Positions 32,485-46,812 of a stretch of DNA of 64,000 bases are shown one piece after another. Within the stretch, counting starts at the first letter, position 1; every line of letters starts with the position of its first letter. The stretch is taken from assembly GCF_000001735.4 (NCBI RefSeq), contig NC_003070.9, positions 22,739,971 to 22,803,970 of the forward strand, written 5' to 3'. This DNA is from Arabidopsis thaliana. Its lineage: Eukaryota > Streptophyta > Magnoliopsida > Brassicales > Brassicaceae. The notes beneath the pieces are model-generated. The model did no database searches. It was not told the origin of the DNA and saw nothing but the letters and a program-made list of their open reading frames with translations. The position numbers and the translations under genes are program-made.

Positions 32485-34717
32485 TTACATTAGAGACTTG
32501 AGATATTCGTCGGGAAGTCGTTGATCATCATCATAGCTGTACATTAAAGGAACTGTTCTTGCAATGTTGAGACAAGCTTTTGAGAATGATCTTGAGAATG
32601 GACATGGATTCAGACACTCCCTGTTCAAGCGTTTCCATGCTCTAGATATCTTCTGGGCAACATGTGTTCTTGCTTCATCAACAGTTGATCCCTTGTACTC
32701 GTTCAGGTAACACTCTACATATGATCCATCAGTTCCATCTTGGTTCTCATCCTGTTAAACAACAAAAACCATATCTAAGATTCGATATCAAGTTTCAGAT
32801 TCTCTCTAGTCACATTAGTTATCAGTAGTTCAATATAACCTTGGCACTTCCGAGATCATCCCAGAGCCTGAGAATTGTAGCTGCAGATGATACAATCCCC
32901 GGGTTACTCTCTATTAGTTCGACTTTCTCTTTTGTTAGTTCTTCGCCTAACAAGATATAGGCATGAAGCATCACTAAATGAACACCTGAACTCACAACCC
33001 CATTCTTCATATACTCTTCAGTGGTGGGTAAGTAACCCGAATTAAACCACTTTGCTTCTACCAAGAATGCTTTACACAAACTTGCCCACTGAGAAACAAA
33101 GACATCATATTTTTAGTAGGGTTTGAACCAGTTGAGCTATATGATACAAAATATATATACACATTACGTTTTGAATGATAATTACCGATTGTCGAAGAGC
33201 GTATGTCGGGTTCCAACCATGTGATTTGTAGATCTTCATGCTAATCTCCGTTGTGATCATATCTAGAGCTTCAAAACAAACCCTCATGTATTTGGGTAGC
33301 GTCTTAAGCCCCTTATGATCCCATCTAGACGAATGATTTCATTATGTTTGACAGAATGTTAATCAAGAAAATGTATAAAGTAATTTGTATGTACCTCTCA
33401 ACAACTCGTGTGAAGATGGTTAGTTCTTCTAGCTCCCCATAGACATCGAAAATGTCATCTATAACATAAACAAGCGATATTGGTTTGGTAAGATCAAGCC
33501 TTTGTTCGGTTAAGGTCGGATCTTGAAGAATTTTCATGGACCACGTATGCCATTTTAACGGCTGGCTTCTTGCCTTCTCCACATCTTTTTCTAAACCAAG
33601 TTCTGTCCACCATCTGAAACATCAAAAACCATACAAAAACAAAATCGTATATCGGAATTCAATTATTTTCGACAAAAAGTTAACATTGATCTTCAGGGAG
33701 TATCATCATTGATTTTACTTAAATGTTTGAGACATTTCTCCTTGAGTCAATGACTTTAGCCTAATGGAATCGATCTCCGCCACTCGTAATAGAGACTGTA
33801 ACCATTCTGGATCTTCTTGACCCGCGATTTTGATCATGCTTGTGAACCTCTTGGACGTTAATCCTCTTACGGTTTTGTGGCGAGGTTGCGCCAAAGACTT
33901 CATTATCTCTTGCTTTTGATGACTTTCTCTACCTGAGCAAAGTTCATTAAGGCGGCTATATGTGAATTCTCTCGCACCGTCGAGTGTTTCTTCACCTTCT
34001 ACACGGAGCTCAGAAGCTTCAAACAATTCTGTTAGACCCTTGACGTCATTTTTTACTACGTCTTTAAATCCACCCTTCTTGTCTAGGATGTTTTTGAAAA
34101 TAACTAAATGTTTTATAAAAATTGTAACAGTAAATACGCATATCTCATACGAGCAATATAGTAAGTAAATATATATATATAACATCACATACTTTCTTGA
34201 ACATAGTGACCCTCTTGTCTCAGCAATCGAAAGCGAAGCGCTATCTCATGGAGATCACCGTTGAATTGGAGGCCTTCTTTGTAAATCATGTGAAGGGTTT
34301 GCTCGATCTCTTGTCGAAAATGGAGATCAATGCCTAAACTTTGAATGACATCGATCATCTCCAGGTTCTCGGATGGAACATCTACGTTTGCACTTAGTAT
34401 ATTCTTGATCTTCTTGATATTCAACTCGTGTAAATATTCCTACGTACAAGAACAAACACATTCTTAGTTCTGAAAACAGCATGAGCAACAAAAAGTAAGC
34501 AGAATATATATACTAAGGATGTCTTATTATGAAACTGCTTCGAAGGGTTAGAAACTGAAGCATGGACGTTTCTCAAGATCGATCTTTTAGCAGTATTTGC
34601 AGGCGACAAAGAATCGACCGTATTGGGAAATTTGGATATCAGAAACGTTGGAGAATTGTTTGGATAAGCAGAAACAAAACAAGAACGTGAACTTATTTTG
34701 GTAGCTATTAAGGCCAT
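32485..34717 (-). CDS. TPS14: Terpene synthase TPS14 ((S)-linalool synthase), 7 exons, 569 aa
   Basis: Exons on the minus strand: 34717-34514, 34439-34193, 34103-33719, 33613-33395, 33324-33186, 33088-32840 and 32751-32485. The third exon must start at 34103; a nearer AG at 34083 also keeps frame but removes the conserved VQEIIFKNILD link. The total is then 569 aa, the length I recall for TPS14. The class I metal-binding motif DDIFD is present ([12 protein letters not shown] in exon 4) and so is the second metal site ([17 protein letters not shown] across exons 6 and 7). No RRx8W motif is seen near the N-terminus, as in the TPS-g clade making acyclic monoterpene alcohols. The first 40 residues are Ser/Thr/Asn-rich, fitting a plastid transit peptide. 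It uses geranyl diphosphate to make linalool; this activity is recalled, not derived here. Confidence 0.93.
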
Positions 34718-35890
34718 GATGTATGAACTTAAGTTTTGTTTTGTTTTTGTATGAACTTAAGCTTTTAATGAGAATGGTGTTAAACTTCAAACGAAATGCT
34801 CTATACATATAGCGATTATGGATTATAAAGGAGTGGTGGATGTAGCATTTAGGGGACGGGGCCATGCATAATAAAATTCGTTATCAACTATGTTTTGTAT
34901 ATATATATATAATTTGTATCATGTGCATACTAGTGAAAAGCATTAAACTTCAAGCCTCAACCATATATAAATGAATTATAAAGAGTCTTTGTACTAAGCT
35001 TTTATTTGAATTACTGGAGTCGTAATTTTAAGATCTTATAGAACTGATACATTCCAATAAGTTTGGCTAGCTAACATTAAGATTAATTGGGTAAATATTA
35101 AATGCATTATGTATCATGTTTGGTGGCTTCACTATATTTTTCAACTTAATATAGAAACGGTTTGTATTTATTGTTAGACAAGTTCGGAAGACATCAATTG
35201 TGGAAGCAAATCCGAAGAACGTGAAGAACCAAATGATCAACGGAACAAACCAATAATGATGACTGACACTGATATTTTTTTTCCATTTTTCTTTCAGTTT
35301 AAAAAGTTTCATTAGAAAATTGGTATTACAAAAACAAGTACAAAGTGCACTACAAAACTTCAGATTTTTTCTTTTAATTATATAAGCCAAGTTATGTGCC
35401 ATATACTAAAGAAAACAAATACGAAAAAATGAATTTAATGATGCTTCCTTGCGATAAGCTATTTTCTATTATCATGTTAATTTTTGAAACAATTTTTTTT
35501 ATATAATGATTTGTCAAAGTTTTTCATTAGTTATTTACATATTTAATTGTTCAAAAATTAAAGATGGAAAAATAACTCAATTTTCCTAAGCAATATATTA
35601 ATGTTAGTATTCATTTTAGATAATTATTCTAGTATAAGATTTAATTAAACCATTAGATAATTTTGATGTATTTTATATTATTAACATTCATAATTATTTG
35701 ACGTTATTTTTGAATTAAATTTCTTAACTATTTTGACAGATTTGACCAAAAATCACAAAAAAGAAAGTTCAGTTTGATTCCGGCGGTTTGGAAATGTAAA
35801 AGTTCAGCTAGATCCATCTGAAAATCACTAAAATTCAGTTAGTCAGCAATTCAGCCTGACTCAGCCAGATTTTTCGGTTACTATTTAGAC
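34718..35890. other. TPS14 upstream region
   Basis: AT-rich region that should contain the TPS14 promoter. The part next to the ATG (about 34718-34850) shares phrases with the relic at 37100-37265. No gene seen. Confidence 0.4.
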
Positions 35891-36630
35891 CAGTGTTTTC
35901 ACGCCCGACCCGAACCGTCCGGTCCGACCGGTTAACCCGTGACCCGAACACGTTTCCGGTTTGGGTTTAGTGCTAAAACCCAACAAGTTCAAAACCGAAA
36001 AAACCCACAAAAACTCGCAATTAACCCGTGACCCGGTGAACCGGTTGAACCGGCCGAGTGTGGGTTTTAAAAAGTTCTCTTGATTTTACAATAAAATATG
36101 GGATTTTAGACTTTATTCAATTATTTTTAAAAATTTTTTTCAGTTCTTAAATTCATTTGATGTTTTAGATTTTGGTGAAGACTTTACAATACCGCCTTAA
36201 AATTGAATCGAATGGTGAGAGAGACAATCGAGATTAGTTGTTTGAATTCACGATGTTTTATTAATTTATTTCTGTCATTGATGATCTCCTAATATATTTG
36301 TTACGGTGTTAGACATTTAGTTGGATTTCAAATTTTTAACCACTTTATTATTATTGTTTGATTATATATATATATATATATTTGGGTGTAAATGATTTTA
36401 TATTTTGTTAAACATAATATAATTTTATATTTGATTAAATATGATATGATTATTTTTGTTTTATATTTATAATACTAAATTTTTTTTTATATAAAATACT
36501 CTAAAATTTCTATTAATATTAAATTTATTAAATAAATTTTAACTAATTAACCCGTGGTCCAACCCGGTTGACCCGATGACCCGGTGACCCAAAAGGTAGT
36601 CCGGTTCATCGTCCGGGTCGGGTTTCATTG
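35891..36630. mobile_element. Tag1-like non-autonomous hAT element, copy 1 (740 bp)
   Basis: Begins CAGTGTTTTCACGCCCGACC and is dense in AACCC, GACCC and CCGGTT motifs at both ends (35905-36065 and 36550-36625), the subterminal repeats described for Tag1-type hAT elements. The interior is AT-rich with no transposase. The right end reads GGGTTTCATTG and lacks about five bases (AAACA) present in copy 2, so its terminal repeat is damaged. I see no convincing 8-bp target duplication. By eye it is about 97 per cent identical to copy 2, in the same orientation. Confidence 0.8.

Positions 36631-38061: not shown

Positions 38062-38121
<60 letters not shown>
38062..38121. repeat. (TA)n microsatellite, about 60 bp
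   Basis: Uninterrupted TA dinucleotide run next to the DEFL relic. Confidence 0.95.
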
Positions 38122-38137: not shown

Positions 38138-38363
38138 TATATATTGAGAACATATAAAAACTGTTGATGTTATTTCTTAGGCAGAAAAAATTACATTTGG
38201 TTGGATTATTTCACATTGAACGCATTCTTATCATTATCATAAGTCATAACAACAACATCGTCCTCTACCAATACATTTGCCATAAGAATACTCGGCTTCA
38301 TTACAAAACACAAGACAACCTAGTTGCCCTGCGGAATAACACGCCATTAGCATGAAGCAAAAC
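38138..38363 (-). pseudogene. Defensin-like (DEFL) second-exon relic cut by a Tag1-like element
   Basis: On the minus strand, 38363-38237 reads as a cysteine-rich peptide from TTTGCTTC to a stop. Its eight cysteines are spaced like those of the intact gene at 40823-41013, including the GQLGCLVFC core and a final CCC. DNA similarity continues past the stop to 38138 (GAGAACATA, CTGTTGAT, GTTGGATTATTTCA), matching 40748-40822. The reading frame ends earlier than in the intact copy after a small frame change. The 5' side stops at the end of hAT copy 2; no first exon with a signal peptide is seen beyond the element. It is therefore a fragment, probably split or truncated with that insertion. Confidence 0.75.
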
Positions 38364-39102
38364 CAGTGTTTTCACGCCCGACCCAAACCGTCCGGTCCGA
38401 CCGGTTAACCCGTGACCCGAACACATTCCGGTTTGGGTTTAGTGCTAAAACCCAACAAGTACAAAACCGAAAAAACCCACAAAAACTCGCAATTAACCCG
38501 TGACCCGGTTGAACCGGCCGAGTGTGGGTTTTAAAAAGTTCTCTTGATTTTACAATAAAATATGGGATTTTAGACTTTATTCAATTATTTTTAAAAGTTT
38601 TTTCAGTTCTTAAATTCATTTGATGTTTTAGATTTTGGTGAAAACTTTACAATACCGCCTTAAAATTGAATCGAATGGTGAGAGAGACAATCGAGATTAG
38701 TTGTTTGAATTCACGATGTTTTATTAATTTATTTCTGTCATTGATGATCTCCTAATATATTTGTTACAGTGTTAGACATTTAGTTGGATTTCAAATTTTT
38801 AACCACTTTATTATTATTGTTTGATTTTATATATATATATATATATATTTGGGTGTAAATGATTTTATATTTTGTTAAACATAATATAATTTTATATTTG
38901 ATTAAATATGATATGATTATTTTTGTTTTATATTTATAAAACTGAATTTTTTTTTATATAAAATATTCTAAAATTTCTATTAATATTAAATTTATTAAAT
39001 AAATTTTAACTAATTAACCCGTGGTCCAACCCGGTTGACCCGATGACCCGGTGACCCAAAAGGTAGTCCGGTTCATCGTCCGGGTCGGGTTTCAAAACAT
39101 TG
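38364..39102. mobile_element. Tag1-like non-autonomous hAT element, copy 2 (739 bp)
   Basis: The left end CAGTGTTTTCACGCCCGACCC and the right end (reverse complement CAATGTTTTGAAACCCGACCC) match at 17 of 21 positions. Subterminal AACCC/GACCC clusters lie at both ends and there is no transposase. Flanking octamers AGCAAAAC and ATTATAAC agree at 5 of 8 positions, a weak hint of a worn 8-bp duplication. Differences from copy 1 are a few substitutions, an indel in the GGTGAACC region, the length of the internal TA run, and the intact right terminus. It sits exactly at the broken edge of the DEFL relic. Confidence 0.82.
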
Positions 39103-40822
39103 ATTATAACATTTTGCCATGTACTACTAAAAATAAATCAAAATTAAATTTATAAAAACAAATTAAGGAAACAAAATCTGTATACATTTAATTAAACAAA
39201 ATTAATGTTTATAAATAAGAGTTTGGGTTTAGATTTACAACTAAATGAAACTAGATGCGGTTTGGGTTTTTTATGGTTTAGATTTTATAGTTAATTCAAT
39301 TTAAGAGTTTGTAATGAATTAATGAATTTTATTATTATTAGATAATAATGACTGTTTTAGTTTGTTTAATAAGATGATATGGCAAATTTTGATGGGCTAC
39401 TTAAGAGGGGGGGGGGGAATAAGAAAAATAAATGGGTTGATTTGAACTAGTTATATTTTGATTGGCTAGTTAAGAGGAGGGAACAAGAAAAACAAATTTT
39501 GATTGTTTTTTTGGTTGATTTTTAGTTTAATAAAAAAAATGACTAGTAATTTCATGTGATTAACTATCAAATTCTTACGAGATTTTGTATAATAATGAAA
39601 ACAAAATATAATAAGAATTAGAGAGATTGTTAAGATTACCCTTCCAAGGTTACCTTTTTAATTCTACCCTTTCATTTAGTTCATTTTTATTTATACATTT
39701 TTAAATTATTAATGACCATTTTATCTTTATTTGAAAATGTTTTCGGTTAACATAATGAAATATTGATTTTTTCCGCCAAAAATATTCCGACGATACTTCT
39801 TATTTAATTGTATATAAAAAGATAGGTTGAACTTCTTGCCTTGTTAAAAACCTACAGAAGCCATTATCATGAATCGGAACAAAGGAGTGCGTAAAGAATA
39901 CCACATCTCTCTATTAAAATTTTAGAAGCAGGCAACATATGCTCCTTTTGTCTGGCCTCATATCCAGTGAATAATCCACATCATTTCACAAAAAGCAATC
40001 CTCGTGCCAACATAATTGATGCACAAGAATATGTAATATGCATACGTTTAACACCATGTGAGCCCAAGGTTGACAACACATATTGAAGCTTGCCAAGTTT
40101 TCTCAATCTAGCAATAGTTGATTCCGAAAGACATTTCTATTGGGAGATCGATGAGATCGACCCAAACCGAATTGAGACACATAGAAATTACAAACCAAAA
40201 TTAAGATATAATTATGGAGATATTGTGGACTGTGAATATACGAGTTTATAAAATTTGATATTATGTCTTATTATATTATTTACATTTAAGTTTATCATTT
40301 TAAGAGAACTTAGATTTATTTCATCTCTTTATAAGACAATAAATCTTGCATCTTTATTCTGATGAGAGTCTAACATAATTCTTCCTAAACATTTTTATTT
40401 TCTTTACTCTCATCAATTTATCGGTTACTGAAACTGTCTCAACCCATAGGCCTACACATCGAAAACCTTTCCACTTGTGCTCTCTTGGAGTTATCATCTA
40501 TCGCTTTTGGAATTGGTATATACATGTACTACATCAGTAGAGGTTACCAATTAAACCCAAATTTGATGAAACAACACGTTTACCAAATGGACCCCGTATA
40601 ACATGTGAAAGTATTTGGATTTTCTAATATTCATTATGTTATATTTTCGATTTTAGATTTTATTCAATACAAAAAAAAGATATCACTCAAACATTTAATC
40701 AAACTATACTTTTGATTGGTAAAGTTTATCTATTTTGTTATTTGATCTTTTATATAGATATTGAGAACATAGGAAAACTGTTGATTATTTTTTCAAGTAG
40801 ATACATTTACATTTTCGTTGGA
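39103..40822. other. Spacer between hAT copy 2 and the DEFL gene
   Basis: AT-rich. It contains a direct repeat of about 55 bases (39388 and 39457, both starting TTTTGAT and sharing GGCTA(C/G)TTAAGAGG) and a run of 11 G at 39407-39417. The stretch at 39840-40200 is less AT-rich but has no domain that I recognise. The last 75 bases match the flank of the DEFL relic. Confidence 0.45.
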
Positions 40823-41383
40823 TTATTTCAGCTCGGACGCATTCTTATCTGTATTATAACAACAACATGATCTATTAACACATTTGTAATGTTTATAATG
40901 GGATTCGTGACAATACACAATGCAACCTATTTCATATTGGCCTGGGGCAAAACACGCTGGTGTTACGAAGCAAATCCCATCGTTGTCGTGCGAGTGCTTC
41001 GAAAGTGCAGGACCTAATTATTAATAAAAATCAGTACAATATAGACATTCATTTAAAAAAAAGGACAAAAATATGTTCATAATTATAAAATGGGTTATAA
41101 GAATACACTAACACATTAAAAGTTAAATATATAATAATGGAACATAGAATTCTTATCTTCAAATGAAACAAGAATGAAAGAGGATGGAAACTGAAAAATC
41201 AACAACAGTCACTATAAAAGTTTTGCTCTAAATTCTAAATGGTTGGTAAAGTTTACCTGTTGCGTATGTTGTTGGTTCACCACTGCTTGGGGCACTTGCA
41301 ATTGTTGTATGACAATGAACATAAGATATGATGACAATAACGCTGAAAACAAATGCGATTAGGGTTTTTGGGGTGTTAGCCAT
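40823..41383 (-). CDS. Defensin-like (DEFL) secreted cysteine-rich peptide, 2 exons, 105 aa
   Basis: Exon 1 is 41383-41257 and exon 2 is 41013-40823; the intron is GT-AG with the usual single intron after the leader. Exon 1 codes for a signal peptide (MANTPKTLIAFVFSVIVIIS, cleavage probably after VHC) and a short Ser/Thr/Pro-rich stretch. Exon 2 codes for the mature core with eight cysteines: GIC, PAC, IGC, YC, YKC, then SCCC. The YEIGCIVYC portion and paired late cysteines fit the plant DEFL/LCR superfamily. Such peptides are secreted and act in defence or in cell signalling, often in reproductive tissue; which applies here cannot be told. Neither exon alone looks like a gene, so simple ORF scans miss it. 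A diverged copy lies at 38138-38363. I recall a DEFL locus near TPS14 in Arabidopsis (AT1G61688), which would fit. Confidence 0.88.

Positions 41384-41436: not shown

Positions 41437-41479
<43 letters not shown>
41437..41479. repeat. (TA)n microsatellite in the DEFL promoter
   Basis: An uninterrupted TA run lies 54-96 bases upstream of the DEFL ATG, where a TATA box is expected. Its length may affect expression. Confidence 0.9.
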
Positions 41480-41484
<5 letters not shown>

Positions 41485-41811
41485 CAAATATACGTAAATG
41501 GTTGTTTTCCTAGTCAAAGATGTAAATAACTTATGATACTATAATTTACAATTTATTTTCATATGGTCAAAATAAATATCTTATCCCTTCAGTTTATTTC
41601 TTTATAGAATTGTAGTCAAAATAAAATACATAGAATGTTTTTTCTTACCAAGCACTTTAGAACACCGGCATTACCCTTACTAATATTTATGAAGTGCATA
41701 ATTAAAATTAACCATATTTCATATCAAAAATTACATCAAATTTTCATTAAAATATAGGTTTTCATTAAACAAATTAATAATAATCATTACAAGTAAAATA
41801 GTAAACACTAC

Positions 41812-42244
41812 GGCCATGAATGTTTGTAGTTTTTAAAATGGTTTTTGGATTTTGGTTTTTGGTTTTTAATTTTTGATTTTCTTGGTTTTTGTTTTCGGTG
41901 TAGATTTTAGTTTCTTAAAAACTTGAATGATAATTTGTTTAGATTTTGGTTTTTATGTTAATGAATAATATATATTTTTTTAAACAAATCTAAAATAAAA
42001 TAAAAAAATGTGATCAATGGTTTTTGAGAAAGAAACTCCCATAATTATAGATTTTGGTTTTCTTGAAAAATTGTTCAAACACTCAAAAACTAGATTCCCT
42101 ATTTTTTAGGAAAACTTGTTTTTCTTTTAATCTTAAATGGGTACAAAATAGATTTTGTACAAAATAGATCTTAAATGGGTACAAAATAGATTTTGGGAAA
42201 AACTAAAACCAAAAACTAATTTAAAAACCACATCCATTCGAGGG
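41812..42244. mobile_element. Possible MITE of about 433 bp with imperfect terminal repeats
   Basis: The left end GGCCATGAATGTTTGTAGTT and the reverse complement of the right end (GCCCTCGAATGGATGTGGTT) agree at about two thirds of positions. The similarity runs on into TTTTTAAA and repeated TTGGTTTTTGG blocks on the inner side. TAC flanks both ends. No coding sequence. It includes a short direct repeat of CTTAAATGGGTACAAAATAG (42132 and 42169). Confidence 0.45.
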
Positions 42245-42854: not shown

Positions 42855-45800
42855 TCAACTTGAAGCAAGAGCGTTTAGCTTCTTTTCATATAGTTTTGCC
42901 CGTCGAAGAGCATCTAATGCCTCAGCTTGTTTCCCTGCACGTTTGAAGGTCACAGCTTTTACCTTCTCTGCTTTGATTCGTTCCTCCAATTGACTTCTCT
43001 CTTGATTATTAGTATTTCTATTACTCTCCTTCACTGGGTTTGGTTTTGCCGCAGCTTGTGTTGTGTCTGTTTTACTTACCGGTGGAGGATTCACGGGATT
43101 GTCTAATCCAATAGCTTTGAGGGCAGACAGGAGTTGAGGATCGAGAAAATCTTCCACCGCTACATCGTCCACCGGTTCTGGTTTAGAGGATGTTGAATCT
43201 TCCAATTGAGCTTCAAGAGTTTTGGCGATTTCAAACTCAGCTTCAGCTTCCTGCATTTTACCTTCCCTCCGAAGCTTCATGGCTTGACGTTTGTGACTTA
43301 GTGACTCTTGCTGCAGCTTAAAACGGTCACGACCTGACATTGCCTTTGGAGCTGAACTTGAAGGACTATTCTCTTTCTCTCGAGCAGGAGGATCCTCCGT
43401 TGTGGAAACCATATCATCTCGTCCGAGCTTTTCAGGAGAGGGATTTTCTCCTTCTTGTAGTCTCCTCTCCAACAATTTTGCTTCTTGCAATGCCTTTTTG
43501 GCTTCACTTATGTTTCCTTCTCTCTTTAAGGCAAGTGCCTTTTTCTTATGAGCCAGAATCTCTTGTTTAAGGGTGTTCTGAGGAGATGTATTTTGAATCG
43601 AAGCTGATTGAATATGACTGGGCTCTGACTCTTCACGTGCCACTCTTTGTTCAGCGCCGTGATTGTTTCCTGAACGAAAGCCTGACATAGTCTCAGCATT
43701 TCCTTTTTCTGCATGAATTTGAGACCTCTCAGAATGCTCACCAGTCAGCAAATCCATCATACTTGGTTGCTGCTGGCCAGGTTGAGAAACAACGCCAGAG
43801 GAACCAGATTTAGCAGGGGAGATAAAGTCTCCTAACAAGTCATAACTATCTTGAGGAGCATGAGAAACACTAGCAGATTTTATCGCTTTATCCTCCATTT
43901 GCGATCCAACTAATAAATCAACATCCATGTAGTTTTCAGGTTTAATTGCAGAAGCTGAGCCTTTCATCTCCATCTTGGGGGTTTCCAGTTCTGCTAGCTG
44001 TGCCTCCAAAACACTGGCCTTACTGTATAATTCATCAGCATCTCCAGTTTTCCCTTGACGCTTGAAGGCAAGTGCCTTTCTTTTTAAGTCAAGAAGTTCT
44101 CTTTGGATTTGTCCCTTGCTTTTGGCTGCTATCCGTGGACCGCTTGACTGCACAGAGCCGAAAGAAGCTTCTTCTTTCTTTGGTTCTTCATCCTCCCATC
44201 CCAAATTCTTAAGAGTCGACAATAACGCTGGGTCCTTCATATCATTTTCTGTAACGCTATCATCTCCTCCATTGAGCCGACTGTCGGTGGCAAGATCATT
44301 GGATCGTTTTTTCGGCTGATCACTGTCAGCATATAGATTCTTGCCTGAATCAATCTCCATTATCTGAGCTTCCAATATTTGTGTCTGGTTCAGAACTTCC
44401 TCAGCTTCATCAACATTACCCTGTCGTCGCAAAGTTAAAGCCTTTCTTTTCAGCCCTAAGAGTTCTCGTTGTATTTCTGCTTTAGTTCTCCTTGGTTTAG
44501 TAACACGTACTTCATATGCACCTTGAGCTTCTGCTGTTTTCCCTGGTCGAGAATTTAGTGGGTCAGATTTTTCTGATGAAGGACCTGCAGGATTATTATC
44601 TTCATCATTCCAACCTAAGCTCTTTAGCATCGACAAGTAATTCGGATCATTTAACTCCTCATCTTTTACATCCACCTCTCCATCATCATCCAGAGAACTA
44701 ATATCAGGCAGATCATTTCCTTTTTCACGAGTGGCCTTCCCTGTGGCAGCTAACTTTGACGAATTGTCCAGCTCATCAAGCTGATTTTGGAGAACCGCTC
44801 CTTTCTTCAATTCTTCTTCTGCTTCGTTAAACTTTCCTTCCCTTCTCAAAGTAAGTGCTTTCTTTTTCACTGCAAGAAGTTCTTTCTGAATCGCTAGCCT
44901 GCTTCTGGGAGGAGGTTTAAGACTCGTATCCCTCTCTGCCCTAGTTGTGTCAACAGTTTCAGAGGAAGTATCAGCAGCCTCTAGTTCCTTCTCAAGTAAT
45001 TTTGCCTTCTTTAGTGTAGCCATGGCCTCAACGACATTTCCAGCCCGTTTTAGATTAAGGGCCTCTCTTTTCAATGTCTGAATTTCAGCTAAACTTTCAT
45101 CTCTGTTTTTAGGAGATGGTCGAGAGTGGACATTCTCATGGTGTCCAGGATCCTCACTCCAACCCAAAGATTTCAATGCAGCAGCGATTGCTGGGTCCTC
45201 CATATCTTCATCTGTGACATCATATTCACCATGAACTCCAATATCATCTAAATTTCCCACAAGGTTACTAATGTCGAAATCATGGCTTCCCTCGTATTGA
45301 GCTAACAGATCATCTTCTTTGTCATCATCCATACTATTAATAAGTGCAGATAGCTCATCATCTGATCCATCAGCTCCACCCAAAAGTTCCTGCTCTTCCA
45401 GTTCCCTTTCCAAAATTTTAGCCTTTTTCAGTTCATCTTTAGCTTCCGCAAGCTTCCCTTCACGTTTCAGCGTAAGGGCTTTTCTCTTAAGGGCAATTAC
45501 CTGACTCTTGTCAATACCCCCAGTCTTCTGAGGATTAGCACTTCGCGGAATTTCACGGAGAAGAGACGAAAATTCGCCCTCCAAACTTATAGTTGCTGGT
45601 TTCTTATCTTCATCGTCAGACCACCCAAGCTCCCTCAGGTCAGCTGCCAAATCATCATTTCCTTTACCCCCTTGACGTAGAGGCTTTTGTGATTTGCTAG
45701 ATTCTTTGGTAGCAGCCTTGTTCTGCGTCTCAGCAACATTTCGCATAGACAGTTCCCTTTTCCGGTTCCTTCTTAAAGATATCTCTAATGCGTCGGCCTC

Positions 45801-46812
45801 TCTCTCAAGTTCCCTCCCTCTCTTAAATGCTTTTAGAGCTTCATCAGATTTCCCTTCTCCTTTAAGAATTCTGTACTTATTCTTCGCTTCTACTGCTTGT
45901 TTACGCAATTCTTCAGGACTAGCATCCAACTCCATACCTTTATTACTACTGCTACTTGCCATTTCTTTAGAAGCATTCCTGTCTGTGCTAGACACAGATT
46001 CAGATGAAGAAGATACATCAACATCAGAGCCTAGAATCTCACTGAGAACATCATCCTCATTCTTTACAGTCCTTTTCGAGCTACCTCCTGAACAAATTCA
46101 CAATCTCTTTACATCAAAAACTAGCAGATAACACAAAAGTGTCATAAATAAGATCACTATAGGTACATAAATACCTTTAGCAGCTCTATTTTTGTAACCA
46201 TGACGCAACTCAAACCGTGCAGCTTCTTCAATTTTCTTACATGGTTCACATATACGCACAGGTGAGTCACCTTGTCCACGTAGTGACAACCTTTGCTGAG
46301 TGCAGGTTCCACAGAACAATCCCCCACATCTCCGGCAATGATGCTGCTCGCTCAAAAAAACAAAGCCAACAGAAACTAAGAAAAATTAAGCAAATTCAAA
46401 GGTTTTTGGGAGACATAGAAGAATCCAGCAAGTCACAAGTCTAGTAATACACAAACCACAAAACATCCAGATTCACCAAATTTACTCAAAAATATGGAAT
46501 CTATCAAATAGGCACATCACCAGAAACCGATCATTCAGTGAAGTTTTCCGATAAACAGATTCTGAATTAGATCTCGAAGAAGAATCGACTAAGACGAAAC
46601 TAAATTTCGATCGAAGAAACTAAGAATCTAAAGATCGCGATAGCAATAAGCAAGTACCAATTGATAGAGAGAGTAAGGAAATTAAGAGAGAGGAAGACCT
46701 TGCGATTGATGAAAGTGAATTGAGAAGAACATCCTTGACAATGAGAAGCATCAACGACCCAACTATTTCCTCTTAGAGATGGCTTCGGCGGTAATCCGAT
46801 CTTCTCCAACAT
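42855..46812 (-). CDS. FYVE zinc-finger protein with nine helical repeats, 3 exons, 1171 aa
   Basis: Exons on the minus strand: 46812-46699, 46343-46175 and 46087-42855. The FYVE domain lies at the N-terminus over exons 1 and 2: WVVDASHCQGC, then the basic RKHHCRRCGG ligand motif, LFCGTC, and VRICEPCKK. It predicts binding to phosphatidylinositol 3-phosphate on endosomes. The large last exon codes for a Lys/Glu-rich chain with nine copies of a helical repeat of about 38 residues (pattern LKRKALTLKREGK-x-EA-x5-KA-x-LE). Between them are five copies of a short acidic motif (LKSLGW followed by D/E residues). Length agrees with the AT1G61690 product as I recall it. The repeats resemble MIT or TPR-like helical hairpins and could bind trafficking partners; that is inference. 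It is transcribed divergently from RPB10. Confidence 0.92.

Follow-up and report, generated by a model that had tools for sequence, protein, structure and literature searches.

Plant defensin-like (DEFL) peptides are grouped chiefly by their cysteine motif (PMC8838067, as excerpted), and their signal peptide and mature domain usually lie on separate exons (PMC3924332, as excerpted); in the latter excerpt small peptides encoded by one or two exons are also said to escape general gene predictors often. The AtLURE1 (CRP810_1) pollen-tube attractants are secreted DEFLs of about 90 amino acids with a signal sequence, a C-terminal CXC and six cysteines in the mature part (PMC3525529, in the part available). 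The CRP0770 root DEFLs (At3g59930 group) are two-exon Brassicaceae DEFLs carrying a signal peptide and a cysteine motif (PMC8838067, as excerpted). On a custom array that covers 317 DEFLs of A. thaliana, inflorescences gave detectable signals for 132, siliques for 141 and infected leaves for 70 of them (PMC3601123, in the part available).

Here we analyze a locus within a window of 64,000 nucleotides of the Arabidopsis thaliana genome (C1:22739971-22803970); the genome searched comprises 119.66 Mb in seven contigs. From its sequence the locus appears to be a genuine small gene whose product is a secreted, disulphide-rich peptide of the defensin-like kind, and to be an ordinary member of a family which is scattered over the Arabidopsis genome. 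Compared by description, the predicted product is a small secreted DEFL as AtLURE1 is, but it has eight cysteines and a CCC end instead of six cysteines. With the CRP0770 group the gene shares two exons, a signal peptide and a cysteine motif; we assume that the seven genes of that group are not among the 16 loci described below. The family as such is known. The interval itself probably corresponds to AT1G61688, annotated as a DEFL, and the tag At1g61688 was not named in the literature searched for it.

Gene model and encoded peptide

On the minus strand the segments 41383-41257 and 41013-40823 (127 + 191 nt) join in frame to 318 nt, that is 105 codons and a stop codon, and there are no internal stops. 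The start ATG at 41383 lies in the context AAAAATGGC. Exon 1 (41257..41383, minus strand), delimited by translation, relatives and hydropathy, encodes the signal peptide and a Thr/Ser-rich stretch preceding the cysteine domain. Exon 2 (40823..41013, minus strand), defined by the cysteine pattern, a nearby relic and the models of the relatives, comprises the eight-cysteine mature domain of CSalphabeta type and the stop codon ending at 40823. The exons are separated by a phase-1 GT-AG intron of 243 nt (41014..41256, minus strand) with the donor CAG/GTAAAC directly after 41257 and the acceptor TAATTAG/GT directly before 41013; this intron is 77% AT (GC 23% vs ~41% in the exons). Translation and inspection of the splice sites thus bear out the coordinates, the GT-AG intron and the in-frame junction proposed in an earlier note on this DNA. 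It had also called the gene hidden from ORF scans, a fair description: starting from its ATG, the reading frame of exon 1 stays open for 51 amino acids and passes into the intron, while in-frame ORFs starting with ATG, GTG or TTG span no more than the final 31 codons of exon 2. With an ATG required as start, none of the in-frame ORFs spans exon 2, so that the gene would be overlooked by a simple ORF scan.

Several other in-frame donor/acceptor pairs likewise leave eight or nine cysteines, and together with the ORF extending into the intron they could speak for a real gene with another splice form, using a different exon-1 donor, or retaining the intron and so yielding a 51-residue signal-peptide fragment. 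When, however, a phase-1 GTA donor, TAG or CAG as acceptor and eight or more cysteines are demanded jointly, the 127/243 pair is the only one left, and this pair provides the junction glycine from the start of exon 2 that is also present in 14 of the 15 relatives' models. We consider another splice form very improbable and continue with the 127/243 model.

The precursor is short (105 amino acids), and its first exon is akin to 15 others in the genome. Residues 1-24 resemble a signal peptide ending in YVHC, with Cys24 at that end, and hydropathy peaks at 3.38 for residues 9-19; cleavage after YVHC24 is probable. Signal peptide and mature domain are found on separate exons. The CSalphabeta-type layout consists of C-x3-C and CxC within 6-8 cysteines, and the eight cysteines of exon 2, with spacing 5-9-3-9-4-0-0, conform to it. 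The gamma-core motif of true defensins is GXC-X(3-9)-C. Here the gene deviates: it has YKC-X4-C with tyrosine in place of glycine, whereas GxC is kept in all 15 relatives, so that the gene is the sole exception among the 16 loci. Its mature part contains six histidines, compared with zero to two in the relatives, and the loop HESHYKHYK sits between Cys4 and Cys5.

A profile search of the joined product had been proposed as a check; a Pfam scan of the 105-residue protein returned no family at E up to 10, and the cut-offs of PF24552 (Defensin-like) and PF00304 (Gamma-thionin) were not reached. The relatives, in contrast to the gene, give weak matches. In a set of 16 exon-2 sequences (those of the gene, of the relic and of 14 relatives, all but L015) PF24552 was touched weakly by seven (best E 0.00086) and PF00304 by two. 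When nine relatives were scanned at full length, five matched PF24552 with 11-16.5 bits against a cut-off of 27, and one matched PF00304 with 11 bits against 25.1. The genome search with PF24552 gave 56 places, of which 32 exceed the cut-off; exon 2 of the gene was not among the 56, and the relatives L013 and L016 were, both below the cut-off. The earlier description as a classic secreted DEFL peptide therefore stands as far as the eight-cysteine DEFL type is concerned, but "classic" is too strong because there is no Pfam match and the gamma-core glycine is replaced by tyrosine.

With a profile of the same 16 exon-2 sequences and a limit of E 10, the PDB search found 28 sequences, none of which was significant; the best match (E 0.014) is beta-defensin 104, a different fold. 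By name the matches are plant and arthropod defensins, scorpion-type short channel toxins and one Knot1 protein, besides two mammalian beta-defensins (another fold) and one entry named just venom polypeptide. An AlphaFold2 model of exon 2, calculated from two sequences with the relic as the sole second row, has a strand at 13-17, a helix at 29-37 and strands at 42-46 and 49-53 (order E-H-E-E) at moderate confidence (pLDDT 64.2, pTM 0.47; two of the five models below 50). The predicted strand-helix-strand-strand order is compatible with the CSalphabeta class, though it is no proof of membership. We are highly confident of the assigned class and gene structure.

A dispersed subfamily and its promoter

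Searching the genome with exon 1 as protein yielded eight other loci (E 2.4e-5 to 0.0072), and each of them provides an exon of the same cysteine order behind a phase-1 GT-AG intron. Two hand-made consensuses, both made with the gene in view, extended this set: the exon-1 consensus found 16 loci including the gene (gene E 2.9e-7; range E 1.7e-10 to 0.25), and the exon-2 consensus found 12 places, ten of them at exon-1 loci (gene E 0.0058; one at E 0.70). The remaining two are the relic and a place elsewhere at E 7.86, which is also a PF24552 place. Two-exon GT-AG phase-1 models were obtained at all 16 exon-1 loci with eight mature cysteines each (16 in L015), but the relatives' models were picked for GT-AG, phase and cysteine number and these features are thus partly imposed. 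Not imposed are the relatedness of exon 1, the C-x3-C step, which is present in 16 of 16 loci, and the CCC end; at 15 of the 16 loci the count of mature cysteines is exactly eight, with CCC at the end, and in L015 there are two domains in tandem, both with a CWCC end. This locus (C5:23862925-23863029 on the minus strand, and downstream) encodes a double-headed DEFL of 16 cysteines with the spacing 7-7-3-9-4-1-0 twice.

The 15 relatives (e.g., C1:5424475, C2:17109394, C5:23862925, C2:8825412, and C4:4851544) have a signal-peptide exon, a phase-1 intron and the eight cysteines like the gene, but their exon 1 measures 85-103 nt against 127 nt and their intron 73-114 nt against 243 nt. Exon 1 was compared over 24 codons each with eight of the 15 relatives, and dN, which here pools both branches, is below dS in all eight comparisons. 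Besides singletons there are local groups of two or three members: L013/L016 (C2:17109-17111 kb), L018/L020 (C2:8824-8825 kb), L029/L032/L034 (C5:16879-16887 kb) and L027/L033 (C2:5056-5069 kb). The 15 relatives presumably belong to the DEFL set already known from A. thaliana, with 317 genes on the array mentioned above. Tags putatively assigned to relatives are mentioned in the literature only in passing: AT5G42223 appears as a defensin-like protein, which fits the assignment, and At1g15757 as an Hsp40/DnaJ protein, which goes against it.

A (TA)21 tract of 42 nt (41437..41478, minus strand) lies 54-95 nt upstream of the ATG. It had been read as a microsatellite replacing the TATA position. 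This interpretation has to be rejected: within 160 nt upstream of the ATG, a run of TA that is 6-16 nt long is found in all relatives but one (14 of 15), and the exception, L016, has a TATAAATA. Some relatives have runs as short as 6-8 nt, which may have arisen by chance in AT-rich upstream DNA. In view of the relatives' upstream TA runs the most fitting interpretation of the microsatellite is an enlarged TATA box of the family. On TA repeats as core promoters the literature search turned up work on human microsatellites. Exon 1, the phase-1 intron, an exon 2 with C-x3-C...CCC and the upstream TA run, the features by which we delimit the subfamily, are all found in the gene.

Upstream of the tract there is a block (41505..41521, minus strand) of the sequence ATCTTTGACTAGGAAAA, which contains a W-box-like TTTGAC. 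In whole-genome exact matching this 17-nt block, ATCTTTGACYAGGAAAA, has exactly four matches in 119.7 Mb, located upstream of the gene, L018, L019 and L020; the pattern was read off these four loci, and the result consequently lies not in their matching but in its absence elsewhere. With one mismatch allowed four more places appear, none at the 16 loci, and the reversed pattern, used as control, occurs at three places. The sequence TTGAC[CT] is present in ten of the 16 upstream regions. TTGAC is the binding core of WRKY factors, and we infer from the motif that the gene may be regulated by a WRKY factor; a combination of DEFL and W-box was not found in the literature. Further upstream of the gene a 35-nt direct repeat with 38-nt spacing and 91% identity is located at 42130-42202.

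Short exons, AT-rich sequence and the missing Pfam match are also what chance open frames with a mere DEFL look would show. Against this, a regular expression for the eight-cysteine pattern, which was composed after seeing the sequence and has wide spacing ranges, matched the window twice, at the gene's exon and at the relic (38249-38359), and matched none of 60 windows simulated with a second-order Markov model. Furthermore, the two exons are found in combination with the promoter block elsewhere in the genome too. Given the 15 further two-exon loci and a 17-nt promoter block confined to family members, chance open frames appear a very unlikely origin of the gene, and we assign them practically no weight. 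The gene model, the relatives and the promoter block thus back the original proposal of an intact two-exon structure coding for a secreted peptide of the eight-cysteine DEFL type.

A tandem relic and the neighborhood

About 2.5 kb from the gene there is a tandem paralogue relic (38237..38362, minus strand), recognized by a protein match and a homologous 3′ flank, which consists of exon 2 only and has kept the eight cysteines. As protein, exon 2 of the gene finds one other place in the genome, and this is the relic (38240-38362; 48% identical, E 1.8e-6). The relic ends early, with a stop after CCCYDL, two residues past CCCY. Its 5′ edge is abutted, immediately before the first cysteine, by a transposon-like repeat of about 740 bp (38361..39105, minus strand, edges approximate to a few bases). 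No exon 1 of the relic was found beyond this repeat; a candidate exon-1 remnant was rejected, its score of 18 being reached by 84 of 300 shuffles. The repeat has at least 54 matches genome-wide, with near full-length copies up to 97% identical, and the window contains two copies (38361-39105 and 35889-36627) in the same orientation that are 97% identical. The ends of the repeat, CA(A/G)TGTTTT...AAAACACTG, we take to be hAT-like; its flanks GTTATAAT and GTTTTGCT, compared by eye for a target-site duplication, agree at 5/8 positions. On the 3′ side of the relic there is a TA tract of 58 nt (38062-38119), which exceeds in length the one in the intact gene's promoter.

Gene and relic agree at 80 of 111 positions in the coding part (72%) and at 80 of 97 in the 3′ flank (82%), gaps left out, and because the coding part is less conserved than the flank we see no sign of constraint on exon 2 outside the cysteines, for which seven of the eight codons are identical. 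Over 37 codons dN is 0.375 and dS 0.252. We do not claim positive selection on exon 2, as this comparison comprises only 4.7 synonymous changes and involves a relic.

The same comparison, in which dN exceeds dS, would also fit a recently silenced or decaying DEFL whose open frame is still intact but whose expression or function is gone, following the path of the relic. The loss of the otherwise constant gamma-core glycine, an exon 1 that is longer by 8-14 codons than in the relatives' models, a TA tract of 42 nt beyond the 6-16 nt of the relatives and the relic nearby, itself beside a transposon, can all be explained in this way. But the dN value contains the relic's own decay, and all eight cysteines, both splice sites, start, stop and promoter block of the gene are intact. 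We therefore regard silencing as unlikely. An intact member of the dispersed A. thaliana DEFL subfamily, presumably expressed and secreted and likely with a role in defence or reproduction, is the explanation which we consider probable.

The gene had further been placed next to TPS14. A terpene-synthase N-terminal piece is indeed present at 33715-34245 (minus strand), and that it belongs to TPS14 is plausible; "next to" does not hold, since the piece is about 6.6 kb away and the DEFL relic and the two transposon copies lie in between. The nearest ORF of at least 110 amino acids is at 42855-46097 (minus strand), with TPR matches barely above the Pfam cut-off.

Predicted function and significance

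The promoter block, the TA run, a start codon in a good context, the exon for the signal peptide, the phase-1 intron and the eight-cysteine exon can be read directly from the DNA, and from these elements the following course would be expected. Pol II would start transcription downstream of (TA)21, probably with WRKY-type control acting through TTTGAC, and the transcript would be spliced once. The signal peptide would be cut near residue 24, and the 81-residue remainder is predicted to fold into a beta-alpha-beta-beta peptide with four disulphides and to be secreted to the apoplast. There it would act, as other DEFLs do, most likely in defence or, failing that, in signalling during reproduction; by this analogy, defence over signalling is a tentative choice that comes close to a coin toss. 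A bolder proposal, for which we see little probability, is that the (TA)21 tract mutates fast as a TATA box and thereby varies expression among wild accessions, and that the peptide, with its lost gamma-core glycine and its HESHYKHYK loop, has given up the ancestral activity for a new, perhaps metal-dependent one.

The gene is one more DEFL in a genome for which the DEFL array held 317 (PMC3601123, in the part available). Should the interval be unannotated, the gene would be an additional member of a known family. Noteworthy is the promoter sequence shared within the subfamily, including a 17-nt block with four exact genomic copies. The 42-nt TA run at the TATA position offers a natural test of whether repeat length tunes the expression of a fast-evolving peptide.
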